This document shows, in pieces, positions 22,541 to 59,742 of a DNA stretch of 64,000 nucleotides; the first letter of the stretch is position 1; every line of letters begins with the position of its first letter. Source of the stretch: Pyropia yezoensis (taxonomy: Eukaryota > Rhodophyta > Bangiophyceae > Bangiales > Bangiaceae). Under the pieces are notes generated by a model that ran no database searches, was not told the DNA's origin, and saw only the letters and a program-made list of their open reading frames with translations. The DNA is taken from positions 22,615,346-22,679,345 of the forward strand of contig CM020618.1 in NCBI GenBank assembly GCA_009829735.1, read 5' to 3'. The position numbers and the translations under genes are program-made.

Positions 22541-22903
22541 TGTAGCACAATAGGAATCCGTCGCACGTCCACTCTCAGGGAACACTCACCAAGGGGGATC
22601 GGCACCAACGTCACCGGGAGGCCAAGGTTGCTGTCCTTGGAGCGCAAGCCACGGGACCAAGATGGGAGCCCAAATGGGAGGGGTTTGTTGTTCTACCTTG
22701 GCCGGCGGTGGATTCGCCACCGGCCCCCTCGTTATAAACCCTCGGAGACACTACTAACTACCCTCCACCCCAAGATGCAAGTCCCTCTGGTCATACGTAA
22801 CTTATAGATACCGTGACCAGTACGGACTCTCAAATTGAAAGTTAAGGATTAGAAGTAGCCCCCCCAATATTAGGGTCACAATACGGACAACCATATTGCT
22901 ACA
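22541..22903 (-). repeat. Element A 3' LTR (left)
   Basis: 363 bp, TGTAGCACAA...ATTGCTACA on the plus strand. On the minus strand it contains GGTTTATAACG (TATA at about 22731-22738). Confidence 0.93.
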
Positions 22904-22915
22904 TATCCCCCCCTT
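22904..22915 (-). other. Polypurine tract of element A
   Basis: On the minus strand AAGGGGGGGATA lies directly against the left LTR, as expected for the plus-strand primer of a minus-oriented retrotransposon. It fixes the left LTR as the 3' LTR. Confidence 0.8.
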
Positions 22916-23489
22916 AGATTCGGCCCGTCCTCGGGTCGAGTTGCATTCGGGTTACCGAATGTAAGTGGGTCGCGTGACTGTTTACCCGTCGGGTGGGGCT
23001 TTGCGCCCCGTCGCGACAGACACCCCTTTTCGAGGTTGTCCGAGGGGGGTGCCCCCCTTTGTGTGGTACACACACGATCCGTTTTCCGGACCGTTAATTT
23101 CCCGATGCGGGTTTTTGTTCACGACCCCCCTTTCAGAGGGGTGGTGCAAGCGGATCCGCCACCAGGTGCCTGGTGGTAGGGGGGCCCCTCTCGTGTGGAC
23201 GATTGAGTGGGGGGCGGGGGCTGCCCGCGTTGCGTGGGGGCGGTTGGGGGTGACCCCCCTTTGCTTACCCCGTGTGTGGGGGTGGCCCCGTCCCGCCCAG
23301 GTGCCTGGGTGGAGCGCGTTCGTAGCCCCGTGGGGCGCGGGTCGACCCGCGTGTTTGTGGCGCTTCTCGTAGCCGTTTGTGGTCATAAGCGCGGGTGCCC
23401 GCGCTTCCCTGGCTCGTCCCGGTTATCCCACCGTACCGGGTCGTAGCCGTCGACGGCTTGTGGGCGTGGGGGACTCCGCACCCGTTATC

Positions 23490-25934
23490 ATGTCCTATCC
23501 CCAGGTGCTTGGAGAGGAGGAAGACCTCCTGATCGGGGAGGAGATGGAGGACGACGCGCCTGTCGGTCCCGACGCCGCGCGTTACGGGGTGAGCTCGTCT
23601 GACGACGACGGGCCTGCGGTGTCCGTCCGTCTGTCGGCCGGAAGACTGTCGTCCGTGTGCAGCGGCACGACGGTGCCGTCGGCCGGCGGTCAACCCGGCG
23701 GTCAACCGCGCGTGGCGGCTTCTACCCCCTCTCTGCCGGCTGCCCGGATGGAGCCTGGTGCAGGTGCCGGCTCACCGCAGCTACCTCAAGATGGTCCGCC
23801 CTGCGGCGGAGGTGGCGACCCGCAGCCGACTCCGGCTGGTCAAGGTGGTCCGGGTGTCCGGGCGGTGACTCCTCGAGGCGGTCCCGACGTTGACGCGGGT
23901 GGTGGTGGCGGTGCGACACCCGGTGCGGCGGGTCAAGACGGTGCGGGTGTCCGCACGGCCGGGGCTCCGGCTCCGGAGGCTGTCCAAGTGCCTTCCCCTT
24001 CCGCGGCGGGGGCTACGCCGACGGGTGGTGCCGGCACCGGTACCGTACCTGCGGTGCCGCGGGTGTCGAGCGGTCAAGACGCTCCTTCTCCCATGGCGGT
24101 TGACACCGGGAGTTACTCCGGGCGGGCGCCCGCCCTTCTTCTTCCTCCTCGGCCTCGTCAATCTCCGACGTCGGCCCCTCTGCCGGTGGTGCGTCCCCCG
24201 GCGCCCCCGATTCTTCCTGGTCCTGCCCGGGTTGCCCCGTTGGGTGGCGGCGTCGCCGTGGCGGCGGGTCAACCCGCCATGTCGGTGTCCGACTTGGTGG
24301 CTCGGGTTCGAGGCCTCACGGTGCAAGAGTCGATGGAGTCCGATGGGCGTATGCGGGTGGACTTCCACCTGGTGCATCCCCGTGGAGAGTCCTCCCGGCG
24401 CGTCAAGGTGGACCCGAGCTGGGAGCGGGAGTTGGTGCGGCTGGTCAACCAGCCGAACGCGGTCCGGGTGGAACACCATTGGATCCTGAGTCAGCCGGAC
24501 GACCGGCATGCGCAGCTCTGGCGCACCCGGGTGGGACGGGGTGAGGTCTACCTCGACCCCAACTTCGGGGTCTGCGACCTGATTGCCCCCGCGTTGCCGC
24601 GGGAGATTGACTACCCGGCTAGTGCTCGGGGATTGCGGCGGCGGCGGAGCCGGTTGCGTTTGGGGAGACGGTGAGCCGTACCGGTCGGTATCCCGACTAT
24701 GACTACTACCCGGGGGAACCCCCGTATCTGTCGTTGACGGCTCCCTACCCGCCCATGGCGGGGTTGAAGTCGGCGTCGAGTTGGCGACGTAACCATGGTG
24801 TCATGGCCGATGCGTTCCGCACGGATATAACGTGTGCGTTGCAGACCGGCAACGGTCGTGCTCCGGTATACACTCCCGTGCGCCCGCCGCTATGGCAGGA
24901 GGGGTGGGAACCCGCCCCTGCTTTCCGGTTTGACACCGGCTCCTGCCTTCGCTACTTCGGGAGTGTGTTGGCCTCGCGACCGGTCCACCCGTTGCAGGGT
25001 ACCTTCACCCTTGAGGTTACCCTCGGGCAGGCTTCATCCTTCTTGCTGTCCGTCCGCCGGCAGGGTCGTCTGTTTCATCTTCCGACGGGTGTCCGTCGGC
25101 ACATCGCGCAGTTGGGCGTGGATCTGATAGCTGCCAAGACCGGGTTGGCCCGGGAGTTCGAAGCCCTGCTGGCTGTTCACGATGCCGTGAACTGGGCTGG
25201 GGTGTTGGCCCTTCCCCCGTACCGGGACCCGCAGGCTGGGGCTTCCCCCTTGCCTCGTCACTCGTTGCGTGTCCGGCGTACTCAGCCGGGTGAGCCTAGT
25301 TGCCATGGGTGGGCGTCCACCGAGGCCGTTCCTGACCTGGGTATTCCCATGGTTATCCATGACCCTCTTCAGGTCCTTGCTCCGTGGTTCGGTAACCCGA
25401 TGCCGGCGGCGGTTGGCCGTCGTCCCCGAGAGTGGGGCTCTGTGGGTGGGGAGCGTGAGGTGTCCCGTCGTCGGGCGGAGTACCGCCGTGGTTACGGTGG
25501 AGCCCCTTCGGTAGGGTCCTACCGGGCCTCGTATCAGGTGCCACCGGCTCCGGTGGTAGCCGTGTCGGCTCCTGTGGCTCCTCTGGCTGCGCCAGTGTCA
25601 CCTCCCGCCCCTGTCCTACATGACGGGGGTCCCCGTCTCTGGTATGAGGGCGTTGACGCCCTTGTTACCCGCGCAATGCGTGGGGGTCTCTCTGTTAGCT
25701 GGGGGATATCCCCCAGGTGCTGCGCTGGTTGGGTCAGCGCGTTGCTTCGGTGGCGTCCTGGACCGCCTCCAGAAAGCTCTGGAGGACGTGGAGGCTGGCC
25801 GCAGCACCCTCGTCCAGCTATGCACCGAGGTAACTCGGGTGGTCGACCGTCGTGACGTTGCCGACCGGTGGAGCACGGAGGTCTACGCGCTTACGCGTGA
25901 GTGGCCTCCCTCGGGCAGTGGGTCTACCCACTGA
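23490..25934 (+). CDS. Antisense ORF protein of element A, copy left of the gap
   Basis: This frame lies on the strand opposite to gag-pol, between the chromodomain end and the 3' LTR. From ATG 23490 it reads MSYPQVLGEEEDLLIGEEME, an acidic start shared with element C (MSDPQVPGGEDDLLFEEEE). Residues up to about 280 are Gly/Pro/Ala-rich; the conserved core starts at SDLVARVRGLTVQESM and includes VRLVNQPNAVRVEHHWILSQ, MAGLKSASSWRRNHGVMADA and a C-terminal helical part (CFGGVLDRLQKALEDVEAG). The stop is at 25934, giving about 815 codons once two breaks are allowed for: a missing G near 24630 and a lost base near 25708, both in G runs that are one longer in the copy at 28047. No membrane segment, zinc motif or known domain is visible, so it is not an envelope gene. 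Function is unknown. Confidence 0.75.
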
Positions 25935-26247
25935 GGAGTGCTATTGTTTGTGCGGGAGAGGGCCCCGGCAACCCTTATGGTAGCCGGGTAGTAGTGAGTA
26001 TAAACTCATCCCCCGCTGGGGGCATTGCTTGCCTCTGTTTGCTGCCCTGGGGAGTACCCCTTCTGGCTCAGTGGTGCCTTGCCTCCCGTCCAAATTCTTC
26101 CGGTTGGTTCATGCTTGGGGAGGTTATCCTCCCTCACTTTGTGTCTTGGCTTTGGGAGGTCATCCTCCCGTGTAAGCCCCCTAGTTACTTCGATATTATC
26201 GGAGTTAGCCTTTACCTTTAAGTTACCTTATTAAGGTTCAGGTTTTT

Positions 26248-26338
26248 ACTTAGTTACCTAAGCTTAGCTCTACTTAGTTACCTAAGCTTGGTTCGACTTA
26301 GAAACCTAAGTCTGATTTGACTTAGAAACCTAAGTCTG
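26248..26338. terminator. Hairpin cluster at the tail-to-tail junction (left copy)
   Basis: Four short palindromes follow one another: CTTAGTTACCTAAG twice and GACTTAGAAACCTAAGTC twice. They lie between the antisense-ORF stop (25934) and the pol stop (26415), so both convergent transcripts would run into them. The copy right of the gap is at 30809-30897. Element C keeps two related units at 52934-52975. A role in 3'-end formation is inferred from position only. Confidence 0.45.
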
Positions 26339-26414
26339 CTTTAACCATTTCACACCCTACTTAGTAGGTATAAGCCTCACCCCCCAACAGCCGAAGTCGG
26401 TGTCGGTTGGGTTG

Positions 26415-27327
26415 TTACAGTAGGCGTCGTCGCCTCATGTAAGGCATGAGTAGTTGGCGGGGTATATTTGCCGCCTGTTCCCAGGTGGGTGAGTCGTATC
26501 CGACCCACATAACCTTGACGTACCAGGGTCCTGGTATGTCCGGGTCGGTGTGTCCGACCACGCTCTCTACTTGGTATGGAATCCCATCCGGTCCCACCGG
26601 GTCATCCGACCGGTGGGTTGTAAGAGCTTCATGTAGCAACCCAGCCGGTACCGGCTGAGGCTGTTCCGGCTTCGGAGCAGGTGTGACATCATTCATACTG
26701 ATGCGTTGGATCTCCGTATCGGAGTGTAAGATAACAGAGTGGTCATCTCTGTGGAGGATCTGGTACGGTCCCTTGACCGGTTGCATAAGCTTGTTCCCTC
26801 GGAACTTTTGGTGTCTGATATAGACCCAGTCACCTGTTACCAGGGTTGCGTGCGCACCCGTAGTCGGGCGTCGAAGTTCTTCTTATACCGAAGTTGTGTT
26901 CTGTCAAGGGCACCCTTGAGCTTAGGAATCATCCACGATAGCTTGGCCAACCAAGCTAGGTGGATGCGTTCGGCGGGTCGGCCCTTCGGTGTATCATACC
27001 GAGTGCACCTGCCGGGTGGCAGCGTCAGGTTACCGACGCCTAGTGGCATGACCCACTCCAGCGGAGCAATGTTTGTGCTCCGATGTGGCCTGGCATTGTA
27101 TGCCAGGGTGAGTACGGACAGAAGCCTGTCCCAAGTGTTCGTGTGCTCGGCCACGTAGCACTGTAGCATCTTTACGATGGTGCGGGTTGAACCGCTCCAC
27201 CTGCCCGTTGGACTGCGGGTGGTAGTCGGATGCCCGACGTGGTTCGATACCGAACATGCCCAGGACCTTCGTGCAGAATGCCGACGTAAGGTTTGCTCCG
27301 TTATCGGAGAGGAGTTGCTTCATGACT
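26415..27327 (-). pseudogene. Element A pol 3' part (integrase to chromodomain), truncated by the gap
   Basis: This is the C-terminal third of pol, nearly identical to 30976-31888. It reads the integrase core around NGANLTSAF and the chromodomain ending IPRQLLMPYMRRRRLL. Compared with the second copy it has a missing T near 26852 and an extra G near 27184, which break the frame. It stops at the N run at 27328. It is most likely the same gene as at 30976, seen twice because of the scaffold join. Confidence 0.85.
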
Positions 27328-27827
27328 NNNNNNNNNNNNNNNNNNNNNNNNNNNNNNNNNNNNNNNNNNNNNNNNNNNNNNNNNNNNNNNNNNNNNNNNN
27401 NNNNNNNNNNNNNNNNNNNNNNNNNNNNNNNNNNNNNNNNNNNNNNNNNNNNNNNNNNNNNNNNNNNNNNNNNNNNNNNNNNNNNNNNNNNNNNNNNNNN
27501 NNNNNNNNNNNNNNNNNNNNNNNNNNNNNNNNNNNNNNNNNNNNNNNNNNNNNNNNNNNNNNNNNNNNNNNNNNNNNNNNNNNNNNNNNNNNNNNNNNNN
27601 NNNNNNNNNNNNNNNNNNNNNNNNNNNNNNNNNNNNNNNNNNNNNNNNNNNNNNNNNNNNNNNNNNNNNNNNNNNNNNNNNNNNNNNNNNNNNNNNNNNN
27701 NNNNNNNNNNNNNNNNNNNNNNNNNNNNNNNNNNNNNNNNNNNNNNNNNNNNNNNNNNNNNNNNNNNNNNNNNNNNNNNNNNNNNNNNNNNNNNNNNNNN
27801 NNNNNNNNNNNNNNNNNNNNNNNNNNN
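27328..27827. other. Assembly gap of exactly 500 N
   Basis: A placeholder of 500 Ns. The sequence before it ends where 31888 lies in element A, and the sequence after it begins where 23271 lies, so the two contig ends overlap by about 4.06 kb instead of abutting. Confidence 0.99.
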
Positions 27828-28046
27828 CGTGTGGTGGGGTGGCCCCGTCCCGCCCAGGTGCCTGGGTGGAGCGCGTTCGTAGCCCCGTGGGGCGCGGGTC
27901 GACCCGCGTGTTTGTGGCGCTTCTCGTAGCCGTTTGTGGTCATAAGCGCGGGTGCCCGCGCTTCCCTGGCTCGTCCCGGTTATCCCACCGTACCGGGTCG
28001 TAGCCGTCGACGGCTTGTGGGCGTGGGGGACTCCGCACCCGTTATC

Positions 28047-30495
28047 ATGTCCTATCCCCAGGTGCTTGGAGAGGAGGAAGACCTCCTGATCGGGGAGGAG
28101 ATGGAGGACGACGCGCCTGTCGGTCCCGACGCCGCGCGTTACGGGGTGAGCTCGTCTGACGACGACGGGCCTGCGGTGTCCGTCCGTCTGTCGGCCGGAA
28201 GACTGTCGTCCGTGTGCAGCGGCACGACGGTGCCGTCGGCCGGCGGTCAACCCGGCGGTCAACCGCGCGTGGCGGGCTTCTACCCCCTCTCTGCCGGCTG
28301 CCCGGATGGAGCCTGGTGCAGGTGCCGGCTCACCGCAGCTACCTCAAGATGGTCCGCCCTGCGGCGGAGGTGGCGACCCGCAGCCGACTCCGGCTGGTCA
28401 AGGTGGTCCGGGTGTCCGGGCGGTGACTCCTCGAGGCGGTCCCGACGTTGACGCGGGTGGTGGTGGCGGTGCGACACCCGGTGCGGCGGGTCAAGACGGT
28501 GCGGGTGTCCGCACGGCCGGGGCTCCGGCTCCGGAGGCTGTCCAAGTGCCTTCCCCTTCCGCGGCGGGGGCTACGCCGACGGGTGGTGCCGGCACCGGTA
28601 CCGTACCTGCGGTGCCGCGGGTGTCGAGCGGTCAAGACGCTCCTTCTCCCATGGCGGTTGACACCGGGAGTTACTCCGGGCGGGCGCCCGCCCTTCTTCT
28701 TCCTCCTCGGCCTCGTCAATCTCCGACGTCGGCCCCTCTGCCGGTGGTGCGTCCCCCGGCGCCCCCGATTCTTCCTGGTCCTGCCCGGGTTGCCCCGTTG
28801 GGTGGCGGCGTCGCCGTGGCGGCGGGTCAACCCGCCATGTCGGTGTCCGACTTGGTGGCTCGGGTTCGAGGCCTCACGGTGCAAGAGTCGATGGAGTCCG
28901 ATGGGCGTATGCGGGTGGACTTCCACCTGGTGCATCCCCGTGGAGAGTCCTCCCGGCGCGTCAAGGTGGACCCGAGCTGGGAGCGGGAGTTGGTGCGGCT
29001 GGTCAACCAGCCGAACGCGGTCCGGGTGGAACACCATTGGATCCTGAGTCAGCCGGACGACCGGCATGCGCAGCTCTGGCGCACCCGGGTGGGACGGGGT
29101 GAGGTCTACCTCGACCCCAACTTCGGGGTCTGCGACCTGATTGCCCCCGCGTTGCCGCGGGAGATTGACTACCCGGCTAGTGCTCGGGGGATTGCGGCGG
29201 CGGCGGAGCCGGTTGCGTTTGGGGAGACGGTGAGCCGTACCGGTCGGTATCCCGACTATGACTACTACCCGGGGGAACCCCCGTATCTGTCGTTGACGGC
29301 TCCCTACCCGCCCATGGCGGGGTTGAAGTCGGCGTCGAGTTGGCGACGTAACCATGGTGTCATGGCCGATGCGTTCCGCACGGATATAACGTGTGCGTTG
29401 CAGACCGGCAACGGTCGTGCTCCGGTATACACTCCCGTGCGCCCGCCGCTATGGCAGGAGGGGTGGGAACCCGCCCCTGCTTTCCGGTTTGACACCGGCT
29501 CCTGCCTTCGCTACTTCGGGAGTGTGTTGGCCTCGCGACCGGTCCACCCGTTGCAGGGTACCTTCACCCTTGAGGTTACCCTCGGGCAGGCTTCATCCTT
29601 CTTGCTGTCCGTCCGCCGGCAGGGTCGTCTGTTTCATCTTCCGACGGGTGTCCGTCGGCACATCGCGCAGTTGGGCGTGGATCTGATAGCTGCCAAGACC
29701 GGGTTGGCCCGGGAGTTCGAAGCCCTGCTGGCTGTTCACGATGCCGTGAACTGGGCTGGGGTGTTGGCCCTTCCCCCGTACCGGGACCCGCAGGCTGGGG
29801 CTTCCCCCTTGCCTCGTCACTCGTTGCGTGTCCGGCGTACTCAGCCGGGTGAGCCTAGTTGCCATGGGTGGGCGTCCACCGAGGCCGTTCCTGACCTGGG
29901 TATTCCCATGGTTATCCATGACCCTCTTCAGGTCCTTGCTCCGTGGTTCGGTAACCCGATGCCGGCGGCGGTTGGCCGTCGTCCCCGAGAGTGGGGCTCT
30001 GTGGGTGGGGAGCGTGAGGTGTCCCGTCGTCGGGCGGAGTACCGCCGTGGTTACGGTGGAGCCCCTTCGGTAGGGTCCTACCGGGCCTCGTATCAGGTGC
30101 CACCGGCTCCGGTGGTAGCCGTGTCGGCTCCTGTGGCTCCTCTGGCTGCGCCAGTGTCACCTCCCGCCCCTGTCCTACATGACGGGGGTCCCCGTCTCTG
30201 GTATGAGGGCGTTGACGCCCTTGTTACCCGCGCAATGCGTGGGGGTCTCTCTGTTAGCTGGGGGGATATCCCCCCAGGTGCTGCGCTGGTTGGGTCAGCG
30301 CGTTGCTTCGGTGGCGTGCTGGACCGCCTCCAGAAAGCTCTGGAGGACGTGGAGGCTGGCCGCAGCACCCTCGTCCAGCTATGCACCGAGGTAACTCGGG
30401 TGGTCGACCGTCGTGACGTTGCCGACCGGTGGAGCACGGAGGTCTACGCGCTTACGCGTGAGTGGCCTCCCTCGGGCAGTGGGTCTACCCACTGA
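28047..30495 (+). CDS. Antisense ORF protein of element A, copy right of the gap
   Basis: This is the same protein as at 23490-25934. Here the core from MEPGAGAGSPQLPQDG (28306) to SGSGSTH at the stop (30495) is one uninterrupted 729-codon frame. The acidic N-terminus (ATG 28047) is in another frame because of an extra G near 28276; the left copy and element C both lack that G, so it is probably a base-call error. Conserved core blocks: VKVDPSWERELVRLVNQPNA, RVGRGEVYLDPNFGVCDL, FRFDTGSCLRYFGSVLASRP, LREFEALLAVHDAVNWAGV-like (AREFEALLAVHDAVNW) and WYEGVDALVTRAMRGGLSVS. Expression would need a promoter on the plus strand, perhaps in the left LTR; I see no certain one. I recognise no domain. Confidence 0.78.
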
Positions 30496-30808
30496 GGAGT
30501 GCTATTGTTTGTGCGGGAGAGGGCCCCGGCAACCCTTATGGTAGCCGGGTAGTAGTGAGTATAAACTCATCCCCCGCTGGGGGCATTGCTTGCCTCTGTT
30601 TGCTGCCCTGGGGAGTACCCCTTCTGGCTCAGTGGTGCCTTGCCTCCCGTCCAAATTCTTCCGGTTGGTTCATGCTTGGGGAGGTTATCCTCCCTCACTT
30701 TGTGTCTTGGCTTTGGGAGGTCATCCTCCCGTGTAAGCCCCCTAGTTACTTCGATATTATCGGAGTTAGCCTTTACCTTTAAGTTACCTTATTAAGGTTC
30801 AGGTTTTT

Positions 30809-30975: not shown

Positions 30976-33900
30976 TTACAGTAGGCGTCGTCGCCTCATG
31001 TAAGGCATGAGTAGTTGGCGGGGTATATTTGCCGCCTGTTCCCAGGTGGGTGAGTCGTATCCGACCCACATAACCTTGACGTACCAGGGTCCTGGTATGT
31101 CCGGGTCGGTGTGTCCGACCACGCTCTCTACTTGGTATGGAATCCCATCCGGTCCCACCGGGTCATCCGACCGGTGGGTTGTAAGAGCTTCATGTAGCAA
31201 CCCAGCCGGTACCGGCTGAGGCTGTTCCGGCTTCGGAGCAGGTGTGACATCATTCATACTGATGCGTTGGATCTCCGTATCGGAGTGTAAGATAACAGAG
31301 TGGTCATCTCTGTGGAGGATCTGGTACGGTCCCTTGACCGGTTGCATAAGCTTGTTCCCTCGGAACTTTTGGTGTCTGATATAGACCCAGTCACCTGTTA
31401 CCAGGGTTGCGTTGCGCACCCGTAGTCGGGCGTCGAAGTTCTTCTTATACCGAAGTTGTGTTCTGTCAAGGGCACCCTTGAGCTTAGGAATCATCCACGA
31501 TAGCTTGGCCAACCAAGCTAGGTGGATGCGTTCGGCGGGTCGGCCCTTCGGTGTATCATACCGAGTGCACCTGCCGGGTGGCAGCGTCAGGTTACCGACG
31601 CCTAGTGGCATGACCCACTCCAGCGGAGCAATGTTTGTGCTCCGATGTGGCCTGGCATTGTATGCCAGGGTGAGTACGGACAGAAGCCTGTCCCAAGTGT
31701 TCGTGTGCTCGGCCACGTAGCACTGTAGCATCTTTACGATGGTGCGGTTGAACCGCTCCACCTGCCCGTTGGACTGCGGGTGGTAGTCGGATGCCCGACG
31801 TGGTTCGATACCGAACATGCCCAGGACCTTCGTGCAGAATGCCGACGTAAGGTTTGCTCCGTTATCGGAGAGGAGTTGCTTCATGACTCCGTATGCACTG
31901 ATCCAGTGGTCAACCACTGCGTTCATGATCGTGTATGCCGTATCATTCGGGATGGCTGCCGCTCTTGACAGCTTAGTGAAGCGGTCAGACATGACCAGGA
32001 TGTACCTGTTCCCTTCTTCCGTTATCGGAAGTGGCCCGAGTATGTCGATAGCGACTTGCTCGTTGGGCCCATCAGGTGGGAATAGCTTCATGGCAGACGC
32101 CCGCCTATGTAGACTCATGCGGTTACGTGCACAGGGGTGGCATCCCCTTACGCGGTCGACCACGTCGACGGCCATTGCTGGCCAGTAGAAGAACCTTCGC
32201 ATTGCTGCGAACATACGTGAACCCCCCGGGTGTCCGGCTGTAGGGTTCTCATGTTCTCGTTCCATGACGGCTTGCCGTAAGGACACGGGAACCACGACTT
32301 GATGTCGTCCATCGGCGGGTGCCCGCCGGTATATGAGTCCGTCTTCGTTCTCGGAGAAGATGCCGGCCGTACCGGCCAGGAGGTTAGCACGATGACGTCT
32401 ACAGTCATCGTCGTTGGCCTGTGCCTCGCGGAAGTCCGCGAGAGTCAGTGGGCATGCTTGGTGTGCCATGGTATGGTCAACCATACCTTGGGTGGCGTTA
32501 CCCACCATGCAGACCGGTACCACCGGGACGTCCTCGTCCACCGGGCGGGTATCCCCGCTCGGGGTGTCGAGTCGAGACAACGCGTCTCCGAGGTGGTTGG
32601 TTGACCCAGCCTTATACACCGTGCGGTAGTCGTGCTCGGCCATCTTCAGCCTCCATCGGGCTAGCCTCCCATGGCTATCGGAATCCTTGTCACCAAGGTT
32701 GAGGAGCCATCGTAGGGGTTCGTGGTCGGACCTCACGATGAACCTGGAGCCCTCCAGGTATGGACGGAGCAGTTGCACTGCCCATATAACTCCGAGGCAT
32801 TCACGCTCGGTGGCACTATAGTTCCGCTCAGCCGGGTTGAGTGTCCGGCTGAAGTACCCTACCGGACGTAGGTCCGGGATAACGTTATCGGTACCGATCA
32901 ACGTCTCTCCCTGTAACAGGGTGCATCCCACTTGTGTATCACACGCATCGACATCGATGACGAAGGTACCCCGTCTATGCGGTAACGCAAGGACGGGTGG
33001 GGCTAGTAGGGTTCGCTTCAGCGACTCGAATGCCTCCTCTTCGCTAGGCGAAGGGGGTTGGAGTACCTTGGGTAAGGTACTGCTCGTAAGAACCGTTAAC
33101 GGTTTAGCTATCCGAGCGAAGTCCTTGACGAACCGTCGGTATACATTGCACATTCCCAGGAAGCTCTTGAGCTGCGTCTGGGTGTTAGGGAACCGGGCAT
33201 CCCAGAGTGCCCGGGTATTGGCTTCGAGTACCCCTAGCTTACCAGGGGTTATCTGGTGGCCCAGATACTCGACCGTCTGTTGGAAGAAGGCGCACTTCTT
33301 CAGACGCAGGGTTACCCCGGCGTTCCTCAAGAGGGTAAGTACCTCGTCAACATGTTGTACATGGTCATCCATGTTACGCGAGAAGACGATGACGTCATCG
33401 AGACACACTAGGCAGTTACGCCACTTCACCCCCGACAGTATAATGTCGATAGCCCGCTGGAATGTAGCGGGGGCGTTGGACAATCCGAAGGGCATCCTTA
33501 GGAACTCGTACACTCCACTGTGACAGACGAATGCCGTCTTGGGGATATCCTCGTCCGCCACCGGGATCTGCCAGTATCCGGCATTGCAGTCGATGGTGGT
33601 AAACACCGTAGCCTCCCCCAGGGAGTCGATGCATTCATCCATCCTTGGTAAAGGGTATGAGTCCTTCTTGGTAACCAAGTTGAGGCGTCGATAATCGATG
33701 CAAAACCGAGGAGTTTGATCCTTCTTCGGCACAATAACGACTGAGGCACCCCATTCCGACATCGAAGGTCGGATCACCTTAGCTTCACTCATCCTCTTCA
33801 CTTCTCCATCAACGATCTCTCGTTGCATAGGTCCCGCTCGGTGCGGTTGTGAGCGGGCGGGTCGTGCGCCTGGTACCAGGTCTATACGATGTTGGGTTGC

Positions 33901-35142
33901 CCCAATGGTCCCCAAGGCCCCGCCTGTCCACATAACGTCATGCTTTCTTAGCATCCGTCGTACCCCTTCGGCTACCGAAGGGGGAAGGTGGTCGAGGTCA
34001 GCCTCGGCCAGTGCCTTCAAGGCCTCTTGGTCCTTTGGCGGCAGGTCCGCCGGAGCCGCCGATGGGTTAGGCTTCCCGTCATCTGTTTGCTGTCGCTCGG
34101 TGGTCTCGGCGACCGTCAGTACTTCAAGTGGTTCCACTTGACCTTCCTTATCAGGGGTAAGGATATCTCCTTCGTAGAGTTCGGCAATCCCGAGGATAGT
34201 TCCCTTCGGGAGGGTGACTGCCTTACGGCGATAGTTCGCCATCACTAGGAGGGACGACCCTCCTGCTGGGAGGTCTATGAGACCGTTGGCCATGGTCAAC
34301 CCATGGCGCTTGTACGTCCGTAGGTTGGACTGGACACTGCAGATGCCTGCGAGGTCGCAGTTAACCGGGAGGACTGTCTCTGACAACGGCTCAAAGCGAG
34401 TTCGCTTGGCCAACCGAAGTGTCTTCGGCTCGACGCTTGCGTACACCTCAGCCACGTTAACGTGGCTTCCTTGTAGCGTCAGGTCCCTGACGATAGCCGT
34501 ATGTCCTCGCTTCGTCCCGTCGGCTTCTTGAAGCTCGACGGTCCTCCGGCCTGGCCGGATTGCATCAACGTGAACGTTGATGAAGGTGCACCCCAGTATG
34601 CAGGGCACCGATAGCGTTTCACATACCAGGAAGTCAACTTCCGTGGTGAGATCCCCGATGGTAACCTGCAGCGACATCGCTGCGGTCGTACGAATGAGTC
34701 GACCATTCGCGTCCTTGATGGTGGGTCCCCGAGTCACTCTGACTCGTGGAAGCCACTTGTCCGGGAGGGTATCCTTCCGGATAAGGTTGGGTCCAGCCCC
34801 TGTGTCCAGTACAGGGTAGTACGATCGTGTCGACTGGGGGTCAACCCCCAGTGTGGCTGATACCTTGAAGTTCTCCAAGGTAAACAACACATGTCCTACA
34901 CCGATATCCGGTGTAGCTCGGGCATCCTGAACAGGGCCCTTGTCTGGTTCAACGTGACGGGGCTTCCCGTCCTCTCCTCCCAACCTTGGAGGTTGGTCAT
35001 CAATCCCCTGACGCCGTGTCGTCGGGGCCGGAAGGTGTACCCGGGGGTTGATGCGGCGTCGGCTCAACCGCGCTCTCCGTGGGGCTTTCCCCGCGGTACT
35101 CCGGGGTGGCTTGCTTGGGTGACCCCAGCGCCCCCCGGTCAT
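30976..35142 (-). CDS. pol: Element A pol polyprotein: protease, RT, RNase H, integrase, chromodomain
   Basis: An intact 1,388-residue frame. The ATG at 35142 lies 8 nt after the gag stop in another frame, so translation may use reinitiation or frameshifting. The aspartic protease has DTGAG at 113-117. RT follows: the RIDLVPGARPARSQPHRAG entry, IDYRRLNLVTKKDSYPLPRM and the catalytic LDDV near 580. RNase H has VIDVDACDTQVG and RSDHEPLRWLLN (near 805). The integrase has the HHCC finger (HENPTAGHPGG...CHPCARN near 965) and a DDE core: IDILGPLP near 1034, SDNGANL near 1091 and NGQVERFN near 1128. Residues about 1330-1388 form a chromodomain (VESVVGHTD...WYVKVMWVGYDSPTWEQA), which in chromoviruses directs integration to modified histones. 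All catalytic residues are present, so the copy could be functional. The family is Metaviridae (Ty3/gypsy). Confidence 0.95.
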   Translation of the reverse strand: MTGGRWGHPSKPPRSTAGKAPRRARLSRRRINPRVHLPAPTTRRQGIDDQPPRLGGEDGKPRHVEPDKGPVQDARATPDIGVGHVLFTLENFKVSATLGVDPQSTRSYYPVLDTGAGPNLIRKDTLPDKWLPRVRVTRGPTIKDANGRLIRTTAAMSLQVTIGDLTTEVDFLVCETLSVPCILGCTFINVHVDAIRPGRRTVELQEADGTKRGHTAIVRDLTLQGSHVNVAEVYASVEPKTLRLAKRTRFEPLSETVLPVNCDLAGICSVQSNLRTYKRHGLTMANGLIDLPAGGSSLLVMANYRRKAVTLPKGTILGIAELYEGDILTPDKEGQVEPLEVLTVAETTERQQTDDGKPNPSAAPADLPPKDQEALKALAEADLDHLPPSVAEGVRRMLRKHDVMWTGGALGTIGATQHRIDLVPGARPARSQPHRAGPMQREIVDGEVKRMSEAKVIRPSMSEWGASVVIVPKKDQTPRFCIDYRRLNLVTKKDSYPLPRMDECIDSLGEATVFTTIDCNAGYWQIPVADEDIPKTAFVCHSGVYEFLRMPFGLSNAPATFQRAIDIILSGVKWRNCLVCLDDVIVFSRNMDDHVQHVDEVLTLLRNAGVTLRLKKCAFFQQTVEYLGHQITPGKLGVLEANTRALWDARFPNTQTQLKSFLGMCNVYRRFVKDFARIAKPLTVLTSSTLPKVLQPPSPSEEEAFESLKRTLLAPPVLALPHRRGTFVIDVDACDTQVGCTLLQGETLIGTDNVIPDLRPVGYFSRTLNPAERNYSATERECLGVIWAVQLLRPYLEGSRFIVRSDHEPLRWLLNLGDKDSDSHGRLARWRLKMAEHDYRTVYKAGSTNHLGDALSRLDTPSGDTRPVDEDVPVVPVCMVGNATQGMVDHTMAHQACPLTLADFREAQANDDDCRRHRANLLAGTAGIFSENEDGLIYRRAPADGRHQVVVPVSLRQAVMEREHENPTAGHPGGSRMFAAMRRFFYWPAMAVDVVDRVRGCHPCARNRMSLHRRASAMKLFPPDGPNEQVAIDILGPLPITEEGNRYILVMSDRFTKLSRAAAIPNDTAYTIMNAVVDHWISAYGVMKQLLSDNGANLTSAFCTKVLGMFGIEPRRASDYHPQSNGQVERFNRTIVKMLQCYVAEHTNTWDRLLSVLTLAYNARPHRSTNIAPLEWVMPLGVGNLTLPPGRCTRYDTPKGRPAERIHLAWLAKLSWMIPKLKGALDRTQLRYKKNFDARLRVRNATLVTGDWVYIRHQKFRGNKLMQPVKGPYQILHRDDHSVILHSDTEIQRISMNDVTPAPKPEQPQPVPAGLLHEALTTHRSDDPVGPDGIPYQVESVVGHTDPDIPGPWYVKVMWVGYDSPTWEQAANIPRQLLMPYMRRRRLL

Positions 35143-35150
35143 CCTTCCTC

Positions 35151-37334
35151 TTACTCGTTTCCCGCCCTTGGTAGGGTGCTGTCCGCCGGGACATCCGGCT
35201 GAGGAGGTGCCCCCTCGACGGCCAGTACTCCACCTGGAGCTGGCTGCCTACCCGGTGCGGGTCCGGGTGCTCGGGCGGGATACCCCCCGGTGGATGCCTT
35301 GCGTTGCGCCGCTGCCCGCCGAGACTCCTCGGGGATGAGTGGGCAGGAAGACACCCAGTGCTGGGGATCCCCACACAACATACACCCGGACGTGCCGGTC
35401 CCCCCTTGAGGTCGCATCGGGGTAGCCCCGTAGCTACGGTTGCCTCCCTCGGGCGCCCGAGTGCCTGCTCCCTGGTAGGCCTTGGGTCCTTGGGTCAACC
35501 GGAACATGGACTCCCCCAACCGGTTGGGTCGGCCCGCAATCTGCGGAGGTGCCTCCGTGCGCACCGCCCATGTTGGCAAGGGTTGGTGAGGGTTACCCGT
35601 CACCGGGGAGTACCCCGTAGTCCGCACATACGGGACGCGCCGTCCCGTTCCTTCGTTGACCTGGAACTGGGTTCCAGCCGGGGCGATGTACGCTACCGTA
35701 CCGTGTTCATCAATCACCGGCGTCGCCGGTAGCAACAGGTGGCCCTGTTGGTCGACTAGAGGGTCATCCTCACCAATAGGGGTATGTTCGGTCGCCACCA
35801 GTACTGGTGCGGCCTTGCGTTCCACCTTCTCTTGCCTCGGTACCGGGGTAAGACTGGGCTTGCCTCCCTCACCCTTGGGCTTCGGGGCCAAGGCACACTC
35901 CGGGTGTAGAACCCGGTATGCGTCCCCTAGGGACTTGCACATATGCATCAGTCGACTGAAGTTCGTCCGTGCCGTGTTGGCGCCCCGTGCGGATATCCGC
36001 ACGTAGTTGGGTACTCCTGCGAACAGGATGGCCCGTAGCTCCCCTTCTCCGAGGAGCTTCCCCAGCTCGTAGTCGAGCTCTTGGATCCGGCGTCCAAACA
36101 TCTCCTCATCCTCCCAGGACTGGGCGGTGGCAGTGCGAAGGGCCCGATAGTGGTCCTCGCACTTGTCCTCACTGAGGTAGCTGCTCAGCAGCTCCTTCAA
36201 TATCCCACGGTAATCCATGGGGGTGGCCGCGACCCTCATTCCCGGCATCGGGGATGCCTGGCGAAGAATGCCTCGCACCCGTTCATCAACAAAGAACGGG
36301 AGGATCTCCAGGGCCAGCCCCTCGTTAACGAGCGCCTTGTCTGCGGCTGCCTTGAAGCTAGTCAAGAAGCCGATGACTGCCAACGGGCGTCCGTTCGGCC
36401 CCCCGAACATAGGGACTCCCTTCATAAGGGTCTGCATAGAGCGGATCGCCCGATGCGACGTATTACGCATCGATTCCGATACGGTGGTAGAGCGGTCCTC
36501 CAAACGATAACGTTCCGGAGTAAGAACCGACCGGAAGACCTCGTTGACGATCTCCGTGTCAGCGTCCTGGATATCCAGTCGCTTAGCCAGTTGATGAGCG
36601 AACTCATCGGACTCCATCCGCTTCAGTAGGCTCGCAGTTACCTGCGCGGTCATAGCTTCCACCACTGAAGATGGTACTTCAGGCGTCGGCACCTCGGGAA
36701 CCCGAGTTGCCTGGCCTCCTTCGTCGTGGGGGTACTGCGAGAGGGTACCCCCTCCACCAATAACCGACTCTCCCCCGGCGTAAGTATCCGCCGGGTCGTG
36801 TCCGCGGAGTCCGCTTCGGGTGCTCCGAGCGTATCGCTCCGTGTGACTCCGTTCCAACTCTGCCGACGAGTCGGACCCATATCCCATTGTGTCCGGGGGT
36901 TGTCCAGGAGTAGCAACCCCGGGATTGACCCTGGTGGACTCCGAAAGTAGTCCGGCCGGTTCGAACCGTACCGGTGTGGGAGGAACACGACGGGGTCCCG
37001 TCGTGTGCCGTGTTGACATCAACACTGCCATTGCGTCCTCCGTCCGATCTTGACGGGCGTCGAGCCCGGAAAACCGGGCCTCGATGCGGGCCAATGATGC
37101 CATCAGGGAATCCCCTGGTGAAGGAGGCGGCGGAGTTAGGTCGGTCGACGACAGTTGAGGCGGGCCCCCGCCTCCTGCCGTCCGAGCCGTGCCAAACGTC
37201 GATCCGGCACCGGAAAGCATTGGCGTCTCAATGTTATCGATCGGGTTCCCGATCCCGGTTCCCGTAGTCACCTCCGGGGTCGGCGTCGACGCCGATCCGT
37301 CATCTTGAACGTTCCCCGTCTCTTGGGTAGACAT
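35151..37334 (-). CDS. gag: Element A Gag protein
   Basis: From ATG 37334 (MSTQETGNVQDDGSASTPTP) the frame gives 727 residues to the TAA at 35151. A GTG six bases upstream is in frame but not needed. The N-terminus is Ser/Thr/Pro-rich. A short coiled-coil (ARIEARFSGLDARQDRTEDA) and a helical capsid-like middle follow (WEDEEMFGRRIQELDYELGK, AILFAGVPNYVRISARGAN). Near residue 650 is a CCHC zinc knuckle, C-M-L-C-G-D-P-Q-H-W-V-S-S-C, for RNA packaging. Gag would form the virus-like particle in the cytoplasm. The stop lies 8 nt before the pol ATG. Confidence 0.92.
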   Translation of the reverse strand: MSTQETGNVQDDGSASTPTPEVTTGTGIGNPIDNIETPMLSGAGSTFGTARTAGGGGPPQLSSTDLTPPPPSPGDSLMASLARIEARFSGLDARQDRTEDAMAVLMSTRHTTGPRRVPPTPVRFEPAGLLSESTRVNPGVATPGQPPDTMGYGSDSSAELERSHTERYARSTRSGLRGHDPADTYAGGESVIGGGGTLSQYPHDEGGQATRVPEVPTPEVPSSVVEAMTAQVTASLLKRMESDEFAHQLAKRLDIQDADTEIVNEVFRSVLTPERYRLEDRSTTVSESMRNTSHRAIRSMQTLMKGVPMFGGPNGRPLAVIGFLTSFKAAADKALVNEGLALEILPFFVDERVRGILRQASPMPGMRVAATPMDYRGILKELLSSYLSEDKCEDHYRALRTATAQSWEDEEMFGRRIQELDYELGKLLGEGELRAILFAGVPNYVRISARGANTARTNFSRLMHMCKSLGDAYRVLHPECALAPKPKGEGGKPSLTPVPRQEKVERKAAPVLVATEHTPIGEDDPLVDQQGHLLLPATPVIDEHGTVAYIAPAGTQFQVNEGTGRRVPYVRTTGYSPVTGNPHQPLPTWAVRTEAPPQIAGRPNRLGESMFRLTQGPKAYQGAGTRAPEGGNRSYGATPMRPQGGTGTSGCMLCGDPQHWVSSCPLIPEESRRAAAQRKASTGGYPARAPGPAPGRQPAPGGVLAVEGAPPQPDVPADSTLPRAGNE

Positions 37335-37540
37335 GGTCACAATCAGTCAACCGACGTATCAATCACCACGAACAAGAGAGCGAGGGGGTAGATTGGGGAG
37401 CGTAACAGTAGATCACAGTCACAGGTAAAATCTCAACACAATCGATCAGGTCGCAACACCACGAGTACAAGAAAAGGACCAGATCCCTATCCGTGTGCCA
37501 GGGCCGAAGACGGCGTCACCACAAGGGTGACGGAAACCCG

Positions 37541-37559: not shown

Positions 37560-37923
37560 TGTAGCACAACAGGAATCCGTCGCACGTCCACTCTCAGGGA
37601 ACACTCACCAAGGGGGATCGGCACCAACGTCACCGGGAGGCCAAGGTTGCTGTCCTTGGAGCGCAAGCCACGGGACCAAGATGGGAGCCCAAATGGGAGG
37701 GGTTTGTTGTTCTACCTTGGCCGGCGGTGGATTCGCCACCGGCCCCCTCGTTATAAACCCTCGGAGACACTACTAACTACCCTCCACCCCAAGATGCAAG
37801 TCCCTCTGGTCATACGTAACTTATAGATACCGTGACCAGTACGGACTCTCAAATTGAAAGTTAAGGATTAGAAGTAGCCCCCCCTAATATTAGGGTCACA
37901 ATACGGACAACCATATTGCTACA
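37560..37923 (-). repeat. Element A 5' LTR (right)
   Basis: 364 bp. It differs from the left LTR by about one substitution (ACAACAGG against ACAATAGG) and one length difference in the C run. The minus-strand TATA box GTTTATAA lies at 37751-37758, about 170 nt into the LTR. Confidence 0.93.
37751..37758 (-). promoter_or_regulatory. TATA box of the element A 5' LTR
   Basis: The minus strand reads GGGTTTATAACGAGG, a good TATA box in the position expected for the U3 promoter. In both LTRs of element C the same site reads GGTTCATAACG. Confidence 0.55.
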
Positions 37924-49292: not shown

Positions 49293-49655
49293 TGTAGCAC
49301 AATACGTATCCGCTGCACGTCCACTCTCAGGGAACACTCACCATGGGGGTTCGGCACCAACGTCACCGGGAGGCCAAGGTTGCTCTCGTTGGAGCGCAAT
49401 CCACGGGACCAAGATGGGAGCCCAAATGGGAGGGGTTTGTTGTTCTACCTTGGCCGGCGGTGGATTCGCCGCCGGCTCCCTCGTTATGAACCCTCGGAGA
49501 CACTACTAACTACCCTCCACCCCAAGATGCAAGTCCCTCTGGTCATACGTAACTTATAGATACCGTGACCAGTACGGACTCCCAAATTGAAAGTTAAGGG
49601 TTAAAAGTAGCCCCCCTTATATTAGGGTCACAATACGGTCAACCATATTGCTACA
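49293..49655 (-). repeat. Element C 3' LTR (left)
   Basis: 363 bp, TGTAGCACAATACG...ATTGCTACA, roughly nine-tenths identical to the element A LTR. Confidence 0.93.
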
Positions 49656-50245: not shown

Positions 50246-52605
50246 ATGTCGGACCCCCAGGTACCCGGGGGCGAGGACGACCTCCTGTTTGAGGAGGAGG
50301 AGGTGATGCAGGACGACGTTCCCGTCTCCGCCACCGCTGCCGAGTGCTTCTTGGCGAGCTCGTCGGAGAACGAAGACGACCGGGTATCCGTCCGTGTGGC
50401 CCCGAGAGGCGCGCCGGGCGGGTTGTCGTCCGTGTGCAGCGGCACGACGGCTCCGTCGGGCGGCGGTCAACCGCGTGTGGCGGCTGCCCCTACTCCTACC
50501 CCTCCGGCGGCCCGGATGGCTCCTGTCGCCGGTGCCGGCGCCGCTTTACCTCAAGATGGCGCAGCCGGTGTGTCGGATGGTCGTGGCGGCACCCCGGCCG
50601 GGACGGCGGGTCAAGACTGTGCGGGTGCCCGCCCTGTTGGTGGTGTGTCCGTGGAGGCGGGTAACAGGTCTACCCCCTCCGTCCCCGTGGTGCTCACGTC
50701 GGGGCCGGGTGGCAGCGATGCTCTGCCCGCGGTGCCGCGGACGACAGGTGGTCAAGAGGTGTCTTCCCCGATGGCGGTGGACTCCGAGGGCTACTGCGGG
50801 CGGGCGGGCGCCCTTCTTCTTCCTCCTCGGCCCCGTGCACCTCAGGCACCAGCCCATCTGCCTGCGGGGCTTCCCCCGGCGCCCCCGGTTCTTCCTAGAC
50901 CCGCCCGGGTTGCCCCGCTGGGTGGCGGCGTCGCCTTGGCGGCGGGTCAACCTGCCGTGTCGATGTCCGACTTGGTGGCTCGGGTTCGAGGCCTAACTGT
51001 GCAGGAGTCCATGGACTCTGCTGGGCGGGTGCGGGTGGACTTCCACCAGACGCGTCACCGTGGAGGGTCCTCCCGGAGCGTCAAGTTGGACCCGAGTTGG
51101 GAGCGGGAGTTGGTGCGGCTGGTCAACCAGCCGAATGCGGTCCGGGTGGAACATCATTGGGTCCTGAGTCAGCCGGACGACCGGCATGCGCAGCTCTGGC
51201 GCACCCGGGTGGGGCGGGGTGAAGTCTTCCTCGACCCCGCCTTCGGGGTATGCGACTTGGTTGCCTCCGCGTTGCCGCGGGAGGTTGACTACCCGGCTAG
51301 TGCTCGGGGGGTTGCGACGGCGGCGGCTCCTGTGGCGTTTGGGGAGACGGTGGGCGATACCGGCTGGTATCCCGGGTTTGAGTACTTCCCGGGGGTATCC
51401 CCGTATCTGACGTTGACGGCTCCGTACCCGCCCATGGCGGGGTTGAAGTCGGCGTCGAGCTGGCGACGCAACCATGGTGTCATGGCGGATGCGTTCCGCA
51501 CCGATATAACGTGTGCGTTGCAGACCGGTAACGGTCGTGCGCCGGTGTACACTCCCGTGCGCCCGCCTCCGTGGAAGGAGGGGTGTGAACCCGCCCCTGC
51601 TTTCCGGTTCGACACCGGCTCCTGTCTCCGATACTTCGGGAGTGTGTTGGCCTCCCGGCCGGTCCACCTGTTGCAGGGTACCTTCACCCTTGAGGTTACC
51701 CTCGGGCAGGCTTCCTCCTTCTTGCTGTCTGCCCGTCGGCAGGGGCGCCTGTTTCATCTTCCGACGGGTGTCCGTCGGCATATCGGGCAGCTGGGCGTAG
51801 ACATGATAGCTGCCAAGACCAGGTTGGCCCGGGAGTTCGAGGCCCTGCTGGCCGTTCACGATGCCGTGAACTGGGCTGGGGTGTTGATTCTTCCCCCGTA
51901 CCGGGATCCGCAGGCTGGGGCTGCCCCCTTGCCTCCTCACTCGTTGCGCATCCGGCGTACTCAGCCGGGTGAGCCCAATTGCCGTGTGTGGGCGTCCACC
52001 GAGGCTGTTCCTGACCTGGGTATTCCCATGACCCTCTTCAGGTCCTCGCCCCGTGCTTCGGTAACCCGATACCGGTGGCGGTTGGCCGTCGTCCCCGAGA
52101 GTGGGACTCTGCGGGTGGGGTGCGTGAGGTGTCCCGTCGTCGGGCGGAGCCCCGCCGGGCTTACGGTGGAGCCCCTTCAGTGGGGTCCTACCGGGCCTCG
52201 TATCAGGCGCCACCGGCTCCGGTGGTAGCCGTGTCGGCTCCTGTGGCCCCTCTGGCTGCGCCAGTGTCACCTTCCGCCCCTGTCCTGCGTGACGGGGGTC
52301 CCCGTCTATGGTATGAGGGCGTTGACGCCCTCATTGCCCGCAAGATGCGGGAGGGTGTCTCTGTTAGCTGGGGGGATATCCCCCAAGGTGCTGCGCTGGT
52401 TGGGTCCGCGCGTTGCTTCGGTGGCGTGCTGGACCGCCTCCAGGCAGCTCTGGAGGACGTGGAGGCTGGTCGCTGCACCCTCGTCCAGCTATGCACCGAG
52501 GTAACTCGGGCGATTGACCGTCGCGAGATTGTTGACCGGTGGAGCATGGAGGTGTACGCGTTTACGCATGAGTGGCCTCCCTCGGGCAGTGGGTCTACCC
52601 ACTGA
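50246..52605 (+). pseudogene. Antisense ORF of element C, broken by a 10-bp deletion
   Basis: From ATG 50246 (MSDPQVPGGEDDLLFEEEEV) the frame runs without a stop through the conserved core (SDLVARVRGLTVQESMDSAG, VRLVNQPNAVRVEHHWVLSQ, MAGLKSASSWRRNHGVMADA, FRFDTGSCLRYFGSVLASRP) to GIPM at 52030. There 10 bases present in element A between two CATG repeats are missing, and the frame is lost; the C-terminal part continues in another frame (VGRRPREWDSAGG...SGSGSTH) to the stop at 52605. Apart from this deletion the protein aligns with element A over its whole length, with most nucleotide changes in third codon positions. Confidence 0.78.
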
Positions 52606-59381: not shown

Positions 59382-59742
59382 TGTAGCACAATAGGTATCC
59401 GCTGCGCGCCCACTCTCAGGGAACACTCACCAAGGGGGACCGGCACCAACGTCACCGGGAGGCCAAGGTTGCTCTCGTTGGAGCGCAATCCACGGGACCA
59501 AGATGGGAGCCCAAATGGGAGGGGTTTGTTGTTCTACCTTGGCCGGCGGTGGATTCGCCGCCGGCCCCCTCGTTATGAACCCTCGGAGACACTACTAACT
59601 ACCCTCCACCCCAAGATGCAAGTCCCTCTGGTCATACGAAACTTATAGATACCGTGACCAGTACGGACTCCCAAATTGAAAGTTAAGGGTTCGAAGTAGC
59701 CCCCCAATATAGGGTCACATTACGGTCAACCATATTGCTACA
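59382..59742 (-). repeat. Element C 5' LTR (right)
   Basis: 361 bp. The site that is TATA in element A (GTTTATAA) is GTTCATAA here (59573-59580) and in the left LTR, so the promoter is probably weakened. Confidence 0.93.

Follow-up and report, generated by a model that had tools for sequence, protein, structure and literature searches.

The Locus

The window, a 64,000-nucleotide stretch of Pyropia yezoensis DNA from contig CM020618.1, contains elements A and C of an LTR retrotransposon family (Table 1). As the initial annotation had noted, both have a long open frame on the plus strand, situated between pol and the 3' LTR, and gag and pol of element A lie on the minus strand. This antisense gene, opposite in strand to gag-pol, is approximately 2.45 kb long. 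Upstream of it in element A is a purine tract (minus-strand AAGGGGGGG). In the left flank of element A is CGGTG, found again on the right only past two extra bases. Between pol and the stop of the antisense gene, element A has a short array of repeats of approximately 24 bp. Rfam and tRNA scans of the window gave no matches.

Table 1. Coordinates of elements A and C and their parts within the window.
Feature	Position	Strand	Remarks
Element A 3' LTR	22541..22903	-	363 bp, TGTAGCA...TGCTACA
Element A stretch from 3' LTR to antisense ATG	22904..23489	+	Purine tract and presumed leader/promoter
Left copy of the 4.06-kb stretch	23271..27327		99.78% identical to 27828-31888; probably a contig overlap left unmerged
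Antisense gene, left (duplicated) copy	23490..25934	+	ATG 23490, stop 25932-25934; frame interrupted
Assembly gap	27328..27827		Exactly 500 N
Antisense gene, right copy	28047..30495	+	ATG 28047; interrupted near 5' end
Conserved core and C-terminal part of antisense protein	28840..30495	+	551 aa
Element A pol	30976..35142	-	1388 aa: protease, RT, RNase H, integrase
Chromodomain-like pol C-terminus, element A	30979..31230	-	E 0.0058, below cut-off
Element A gag-like ORF	35151..37340	-	729 aa; weak zinc-knuckle match, E 0.072
Element A 5' LTR	37560..37923	-	Primer-binding-type TGG just downstream, minus strand
Element C 3' LTR	49293..49655	-	Preceded by CATTG
Element C antisense gene	50246..52605	+	ATG 50246, stop 52603-52605 by alignment with A
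Element C 5' LTR	59382..59742	-	Then CATTG (target duplication)

The initial annotation gave the span 23490-30495 and, for elements A and C, an ORF of about 815 codons. This span joins the ATG of the left copy to the stop of the right copy, and the window holds no uninterrupted single frame of 815 codons. The left copy is split into two ORFs, 23379-24674 (431 aa, a count that includes pre-ATG residues as the ORF begins upstream of the ATG) and 24671-25855 (394 aa), and the longest open part of the right copy is 28306-30495 (729 aa, hereafter P0001). The two 4.06-kb copies are probably overlapping contig ends that were left unmerged; a real tandem duplication inside element A was rejected in favor of this assembly overlap because the gap measures exactly 500 N and the edges of the duplicate coincide with no feature of the element. 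The antisense ORF of element C was listed as 50144-52228, and a short deletion breaks its frame in the last third. The length of 815 codons does hold for whole A-type copies elsewhere in the genome; whole B-type copies have 843 codons and C-type copies 787-790 (four of four extracted).

Comparison of A and C within the window reveals seven gaps inside the frame. In the assembled sequence five of these have lengths divisible by three; using the left A copy adds a sixth, and the remaining one is the deletion that breaks the frame of C. Beyond the stop, divergence rises from 7-9% to 34% within approximately 300 bp. Before the ATG, A and C are 95.7% identical over 22904-23279 and 66.7% identical over 23280-23489.

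Class of the Element

The Pfam domain order of pol is aspartyl protease, RVT_1, RT_RNaseH, H2C2 and rve, the protease match (gag-asp_proteas, E 2.3e-5) being slightly below its cut-off. Together with TG...CA LTRs, a purine tract and a primer site, this protease-RT-RNase H-integrase order is that of Ty3/gypsy elements. The tail of pol matches the chromodomain PF00385 at E 0.0058 and 17 bits (curated cut-off 25.1), and PF00385 is absent from the matches for the whole of pol at E up to 1. The end of pol does align collinearly with a relative bearing PF00385 (P0016). The elements thus belong to a high-copy Ty3/gypsy family of a Bangiales red alga, which is probably, on the evidence of its pol end, a chromovirus family. 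The additional gene does not resemble an ENV-like third ORF: it is antisense, its highest 19-residue mean hydropathy is 1.37 in A and C and 1.33 in B, and hydropathy reveals no membrane-like stretch in any of the three proteins.

Copies and Linkage in the Genome

In most of the copies sampled, the antisense gene and pol are arranged tail-to-tail, and the antisense frame is kept in many. In the 107.5 Mb of genome searched, a degenerate motif from the core of the antisense protein has 769 exact matches (371 + 398) and a pol-tail (chromodomain) motif has 377 + 373, with 0 for the controls. Among the first 100 pol tails listed on contig C1, 80 have the antisense motif on the opposite strand at a distance of 1622-1700 bp; decay of a 29-base motif could account for the 20 without it. 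Conversely, of the first 100 antisense motifs listed on the same contig, two lie beyond the range of the other list and 80 of the remaining 98 are opposed by a pol tail. The first 40 loci, which represent 38 places, include 37 with pol downstream on the opposite strand and 37 with an LTR upstream.

Conservation of the frame in other copies had been set beforehand as a test that could overturn the reading, and the frame has persisted: the matched part is free of stops in 58 of 61 matches to the A query and 35 of 64 to the C query, counts that leave frameshifts aside and are biased toward whole copies because matches were ranked by score. One count of in-frame stops was not used because the query alignment overran the natural stop of the B-type copies.

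Coding Status and Selection

The antisense frame is protein-coding and is under purifying selection between subfamilies. In six of six intact representatives, the +1 frame alone is open among the six possible frames. When a 3470-bp stretch of L002 was dinucleotide-shuffled 1000 times, no shuffle reached 815 open codons; the longest frame was 494 codons, compared with 854, stop to stop, for the real one. When one intact representative of each type (A, B and C) is aligned with the other two, giving three pairs, every gap is a multiple of three. Substitutions in the core concentrate at third codon positions (by position: 123, 86, 221; 33, 25, 73; 128, 87, 216; 20, 12, 52), an excess with p from 3e-7 to 2e-15.

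A dN/dS near 1 was likewise to count against the gene, and values for the core between types are 0.20-0.34 (A-B 0.27-0.29, A-C 0.31-0.34, C-B 0.30-0.31, A-A' 0.20). Within types the core gives 0.40 for C and 1.7 for one B pair, the latter on 22 differences. The N-terminal part, at approximately 0.47-0.60 between types, is therefore weakly constrained. The core of the antisense protein evolves faster than the pol tail.

Features and Relatives of the Antisense Protein

Natural A-type copies that are intact, found in other parts of the genome, do have the acidic start described initially, and the first 60 residues contain 13-16 acidic and 2-3 basic residues in A, B and C. An [ED]DLL motif occurs near the start in five of 15 sequences, those that apparently hold the N-terminus, and a double-arginine linker in 12 of 13. 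Acidic starts and arginine clusters are common in G+C-rich coding sequence. Both AlphaFold2 models failed, with a mean pLDDT of 29 for P0001 (eight sequences) and 30 for residues 200-546 (21 sequences), and no fold therefore backs DNA or RNA binding. Within the otherwise failed P0001 model, C-terminal helices at 661-720 form a block with pLDDT of 63-85.

That the protein has no familiar domain was borne out: searches of Pfam, PHROGs, NCBIfam and PDB sequences gave no match above cut-off. The sole Pfam match to the antisense proteins, DUF6214 (E 0.032-0.074, with approximately half the cut-off bit score), falls on the arginine-rich linker (P0001 residues 534-606) and was discounted as a probable effect of composition.

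Relatives of the protein are found in Pyropia vietnamensis (37-56% identical), the best being 50% identical over the whole core. Searches of 5.8 billion proteins, limited to relatives sharing five-residue words and scoring the candidates with most shared words (7990 in one search, 7994 in the other), gave no homolog outside P. vietnamensis and some other contigs. Scans of the viral_contigs and genome_contigs sets, from which records very near the source genome were possibly excluded, gave no relatives, and a homology search with pol gave no P. vietnamensis name among the 120 of 1651 matches listed.

Possible Roles of the Antisense Gene

What does this gene do for the element? The reading favored here, held with about even confidence, is that the element has in this ORF a true accessory gene, which probably encodes a nuclear regulator acting in trans. 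Transcription opposite to the genomic RNA would start from the gene's own promoter, presumed, like the leader, to occupy the conserved sequence that separates the 3' LTR from the ATG. The protein would begin with an acidic, leucine-containing part, followed by a probably disordered linker rich in Pro, Gly, Ala and Ser, then the conserved core, a second linker that is arginine-rich and similar to a bipartite nuclear signal, and a helical C-terminus. Such a protein would probably be nuclear and could regulate LTR transcription or the balance of sense and antisense RNA. We infer that regulation is the likeliest function.

A role in the particle or in integration, e.g., as an RNA- or DNA-binding cofactor, in assembly, or in import or targeting of the pre-integration complex, is a lesser possibility, to which perhaps one chance in four might be given. 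The linkage of the gene to the element in most sampled copies is consistent with such a role, and import or assembly would fit the arginine-rich linker and the C-terminal helices as well. The zinc-knuckle match of gag is weak (E 0.072), so an extra nucleic-acid-binding partner is conceivable. However, profile comparison of the antisense protein with gag and pol gave probabilities of only 0.2% and 0.1%, and a separate antisense transcript would be an odd route by which to supply a particle protein.

It is unlikely that the gene was captured from the host, or from a virus, and acts on the host, e.g., against silencing of the element, now being kept by the element. Its silent-site usage is poor in A (5%), as in a presumed, unverified host ORF (7%), compared with 25% in pol, and no likeness to other retroelement proteins was found. 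As a sign of capture this pattern is ambiguous, since the strand bias of the element would produce the same on the opposite strand, and the comparison covered a single host ORF. Against capture, the word-based searches of 5.8 billion proteins yielded no homolog beyond the P. vietnamensis and contig relatives, no single-copy host relative was identified among the places read, and no sign was found that a known host gene had been captured.

The core appears to have been passed from element to element as a cassette, and its A/C and B versions are approximately 70% identical. It may have been swapped between otherwise similar elements, with breakpoints inside the gene and just past the stop. An unlikely but novel proposal is that the gene serves modular compatibility or self-limitation. 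The exchanged core would then set which elements the protein recognizes, through their own LTR, RNA or particles, each subfamily would receive its own regulator or copy-number control, and tandem arrays of LTR plus antisense gene that lack gag-pol would act solely as trans-acting regulators.

It is also conceivable that the antisense RNA is what matters, through dsRNA/siRNA or noncoding regulation, with the frame a passenger. Since the entire antisense unit is the complement of the 3' portion of the genomic RNA, dsRNA could arise from any transcript of it, an idea proposed in the literature (PMC7264820). As the sole function this is strongly disfavored, given selection at the codon level (dN/dS of 0.2-0.34 between types, third-position excess and frame-preserving gaps) and a protein approximately 50% conserved in another species. 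Finally, long chance frames do occur in G+C-rich DNA and part of the window is duplicated in the assembly around 500 N, but the hundreds of copies elsewhere, the shuffles, none as long, and the selection refute a chance or artefactual frame, a reading that is valid only for the doubling in the window.

Comparison With Known Systems

Flowering plants and a fungus have elements with an antisense gene between pol and the 3' LTR, and retroviruses have antisense genes of another form; a 2020 review describes the function of retrotransposon antisense genes as not known (PMC7264820). Grande gene23 and the RIRE2 antisense ORF ("aORF-3R") of plant Ty3/gypsy elements occupy this position, and aORF-3R is described as present in most copies with conservation similar to that of other element proteins; for Grande, the gene is reported to have its own promoter and to encode a protein located in the nucleus (PMC7264820). 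The Pyropia gene is likewise placed between pol and the 3' LTR in most sampled copies. In contrast to these grass elements, its host is a red alga, the pol of its element has a chromodomain-like end, and the antisense core evolves faster than the pol tail; the likeness is one of arrangement.

In the Retand lineage, antisense ORFs in a long pol-to-3' LTR region are proposed to be DNA-binding regulators, and Retand is described as a non-chromovirus with a TRP28 domain (PF04195) (PMC11963269). Position of the antisense ORF and the repeat array of element A recall this lineage. PF04195 has no Pfam match in P0001-P0004 at E up to 1, nor in B, C and two related proteins at E up to 10. Boty brtn of Botrytis provides an additional antisense gene in a non-plant Ty3/gypsy element (PMC7264820; PMC8365987).

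HBZ is an antisense regulatory protein of HTLV-type retroviruses with an acidic start and basic nuclear-signal regions. In the regulator model, the Pyropia protein would probably act as such retroviral proteins do, and as has been suggested for the Grande and Retand antisense genes. The likeness to HBZ is an analogy of arrangement and not kinship, and no bZIP model is among the Pfam matches of the antisense proteins. The HTLV 3' LTR contains an antisense promoter (PMC7264820).

By position and strand, the Pyropia gene is an antisense extra ORF of the Grande/Retand kind, in line with the initial comparison with Grande, and adds a red-algal variant to those of Grande, Retand and Boty. The question of function is testable in a 107-Mb genome that offers hundreds of copies, many whole frames, measurable selection and natural core-swapped subfamilies. 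If the protein is indeed a regulator in the nucleus, LTR elements of separate lineages would have reached an antisense regulator, either convergently or through an old shared arrangement.

The Antisense Gene in Elements A and C

Elements A and C align at 84–89% identity over long stretches. The gag and pol genes of A lie on the minus strand, and its pol has Pfam matches to protease, reverse transcriptase, RNase H and integrase; the pol tail is chromodomain-like (E 0.0058, below the Pfam cut-off) and collinear with that of a chromodomain-bearing relative. In C, the minus-strand pol region is broken up into several ORFs. The LTRs of A are more alike (99.45% identity) than those of C (95.9%), which points to A as the more recent insertion. 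CATTG is found on both flanks of C, and the left-hand CGGTG of A recurs on the right side only past two extra bases.

In both elements a long plus-strand frame lies in the interval that separates pol from the 3′ LTR. The initial annotation gave the span 23490–30495 and, for the frame in A and C, about 815 codons. The frame itself is real, but this span takes in two copies of a 4.06-kb stretch (99.78% identical) around a gap. Neither edge of the doubled stretch coincides with an element feature, and we read it as overlapping contig ends that were joined with a gap and left unmerged, so that the assembled length of A is inflated by about 4.6 kb. The frame is interrupted at differing places in the two A copies and broken in the last third of C by a short deletion; thus the window alone holds no single 815-codon frame. 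That length stands for the family: among copies chosen for being whole, 815 codons were found in all six A-type or A-like copies extracted, 787–790 in C-type copies (n = 4) and 843 in B-type copies (n = 3).

Features of the window and of related loci in the same genome (G000; C1 and C2 are its contigs, L numbers are loci fetched from it)
Feature	Position	Strand	Basis or remark
Element A (LTR element)	22541–37923 as assembled	minus	LTR comparison
Element C (LTR element, same family as A)	49293–59742	minus	LTR comparison
Doubled 4.06-kb stretch in A	23271–27327 and 27828–31888
Gap of exactly 500 N	27328–27827		between both 4.06-kb copies
Short array in A	30808–30903 (duplicate 26247–26342)		between antisense stop and pol end
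Repeat pair	38662–39143 / 46292–46775		96% identical, between/around elements
Repeat pair	21506–22079 / 62788–63359		92% identical, between/around elements
1653-aa open frame	8026–12987	minus	G+C-rich DNA outside elements; perhaps host gene
B subfamily	L011–L015, L019, L020, L025, L031, L034		N-terminus, LTR, pol tail A-like; core only about 68–70% identical
Tandem array	L016, L017, L018, L032 (C2:9878567–9893899)		3489-bp unit
Possible second array	C1:3594911–3602639		inferred from motifs about 3.86 kb apart

Copies Across the Genome

The core motif SWRRNHG(V/I)MA, as a degenerate 30-base pattern, has 769 matches in the genome (107,475,971 bases in 11 contigs, the three large ones of 43.6, 34.3, and 29.4 Mb) and a pol-tail pattern has 750, with 0 for the control in each case. 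Among the first 100 places listed of each, 80 of 100 pol tails oppose an antisense motif on the other strand at 1622–1700 bp, and 80 of 98 antisense motifs oppose a pol tail (two lie past the range of the other list). In a set of the first 40 loci fetched (38 places), pol follows downstream on the other strand at 37, and an LTR stands upstream of the antisense gene at 37. Loci L016–L018, where pol is absent, are all part of one tandem array whose unit is the LTR plus the antisense gene without gag-pol; three stretches fetched from it differ by 3–6 bases and have one stop codon in common.

The frame is kept in many family members: its matched part lacks in-frame stops in 58 of 61 matches to the A query and 35 of 64 to the C query, in score-ranked lists that lean towards whole copies and with frameshifts ignored. 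In the first 40 loci, the best-aligned piece has stops at seven positions, none of them shared between places except in the array; such scattered stops fit decay after insertion.

Coding Capacity and Selection

The antisense frame is a selected, element-borne protein gene. In codon comparisons of natural intact copies, dN/dS of the core is not near 1: 0.27–0.29 for A–B (dS about 0.73), 0.31–0.34 for A–C, about 0.30–0.31 for C–B and 0.20 for A against the A-like copy L038. Counter-results come from one within-C pair (0.40) and one within-B pair (1.7 on 22 differences). The pol tail of these copies gives about 0.06–0.22 between types: constraint acts on the antisense protein, but more loosely than on the pol tail. 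Its N-terminal part, with 0.47–0.60 between types, counts among the counter-results, being no more than weakly constrained. Core substitutions at the first, second and third codon positions number 123, 86, and 221 for A–B (chi-square p = 2e-15), 33, 25, and 73 for A–C (3e-7), 128, 87, and 216 for C–B (7e-14), and 20, 12, and 52 for A–L038 (1e-7).

When one intact gene of each type (A, B, and C) is compared, every gap is a multiple of three; A and L038 show none between them, and the remaining five frames carry 4–27 stops in six representatives. Of the seven gaps that fall within the frame between A and C of the window, five have lengths divisible by three in the assembly and a sixth does when the left A copy is taken; the seventh is the deletion that disrupts C. 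Beyond the frame, gaps measure 1, 2, 13, and 23 bases, also 3 and 6, and divergence climbs from 7–9% to 34% within about 300 bp beyond the stop. None of 1000 dinucleotide shuffles contained an 815-codon frame. Four-fold silent sites hold 5% A and 23–29% T in intact antisense genes and 25% A and 17% T in pol, a contrast reflecting either element strand bias or host-like codon usage. In the window it concerns 28047–30495 and 30976–37340.

Mosaic Structure

When one representative per type (A, L002; B, L019; C, L052) was scanned over about 5 kb in steps of 200 bp, divergence jumped abruptly within the antisense gene and just beyond its stop. A and B differ by 3.5–12% in the LTR, leader, N-terminal part, 3′ flank and pol tail and by 19.5–31% across the core, with one in-between step (15%) at the core edge. 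A and C differ by 2.5–10.5% in the leader, most of the core and the pol tail; their divergence is 20–39% in the N-terminal part, and the 3′ flank shows 34%. Compared with these representatives, leader and core are nearest to the same type in 59 of 60 loci (58 places), one having no leader match. On the simplest reading of these alignments, parts of the region would have been exchanged between lineages by recombination, e.g., template switching of co-packaged RNAs; the core of the B subfamily would be a cassette-like exchange.

The Protein and Its Possible Role

Searched twice against 5.8 billion proteins, with 7990 and 7994 candidates scored, the protein gave 6 and 12 hits. Eight of the 12 belong to Pyropia vietnamensis and bear the name hypothetical protein (37–56% identical, E 3e-274 to 1e-97) and the other four come from contigs; no relatives were found in viral_contigs and genome_contigs. 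As first annotated, the protein has no familiar domain, with zero matches above cut-offs in Pfam, PHROGs, NCBIfam, and PDB, and an acidic start (13–16 acidic vs. 2–3 basic among the first 60 residues in A, B, and C). Comparison with the gag and pol of the element showed no relationship either. The acidic start contains [ED]DLL in five of 15 sequences (A, B, C, the protein P0008 and P. vietnamensis P0012); the remaining ten seem to start farther along. In the A type a Pro/Gly/Ala/Ser-rich linker follows. The core, from about residue 265, is most conserved near SWRRNHG, RTDIT, ALQTGNG, and FRFDT, and leads into an arginine-rich linker (double-arginine cluster in 12 of 13 sequences) and a C-terminal stretch predicted to be helical. 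The A, B, and C proteins have no membrane-like stretch, and two attempts at structure prediction for the core gave no usable model.

Between the 3′ LTR and the ATG, 376 bp are 95.7% identical in A and C, and the 210 bp before the ATG 66.7%. The gene could be transcribed from this conserved stretch, and its product would act in the nucleus and regulate the element, a role to which we give an even chance. A particle or integration cofactor seems unlikely, and a captured gene acting on the host quite improbable. The short array of A consists of near-palindromic units of about 24 bp, and two of its 23-base stretches are absent from C; it may serve the two converging genes as a terminator or processing region.

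Comparison With Known Systems

For Porphyra yezoensis, a 2012 survey reported no retrotransposon chromodomain in the data then available (PMC3350952). The initial remark that no such antisense ORF was known from a red-algal chromovirus agrees with the titles and abstract beginnings of the open-licence literature, where none was found for a red-algal element. The class of antisense extra ORFs is itself known in plants and, among fungi, in the Botrytis element Boty (PMC7264820; PMC8365987), so what is new here is the red-algal host group, the protein family and the apparent cassette-like evolution. The mechanism proposed here has its parallels in gene23 of Grande, for which a separate promoter and a nuclear protein are reported, and in retroviral antisense proteins (PMC7264820; PMC11963269).
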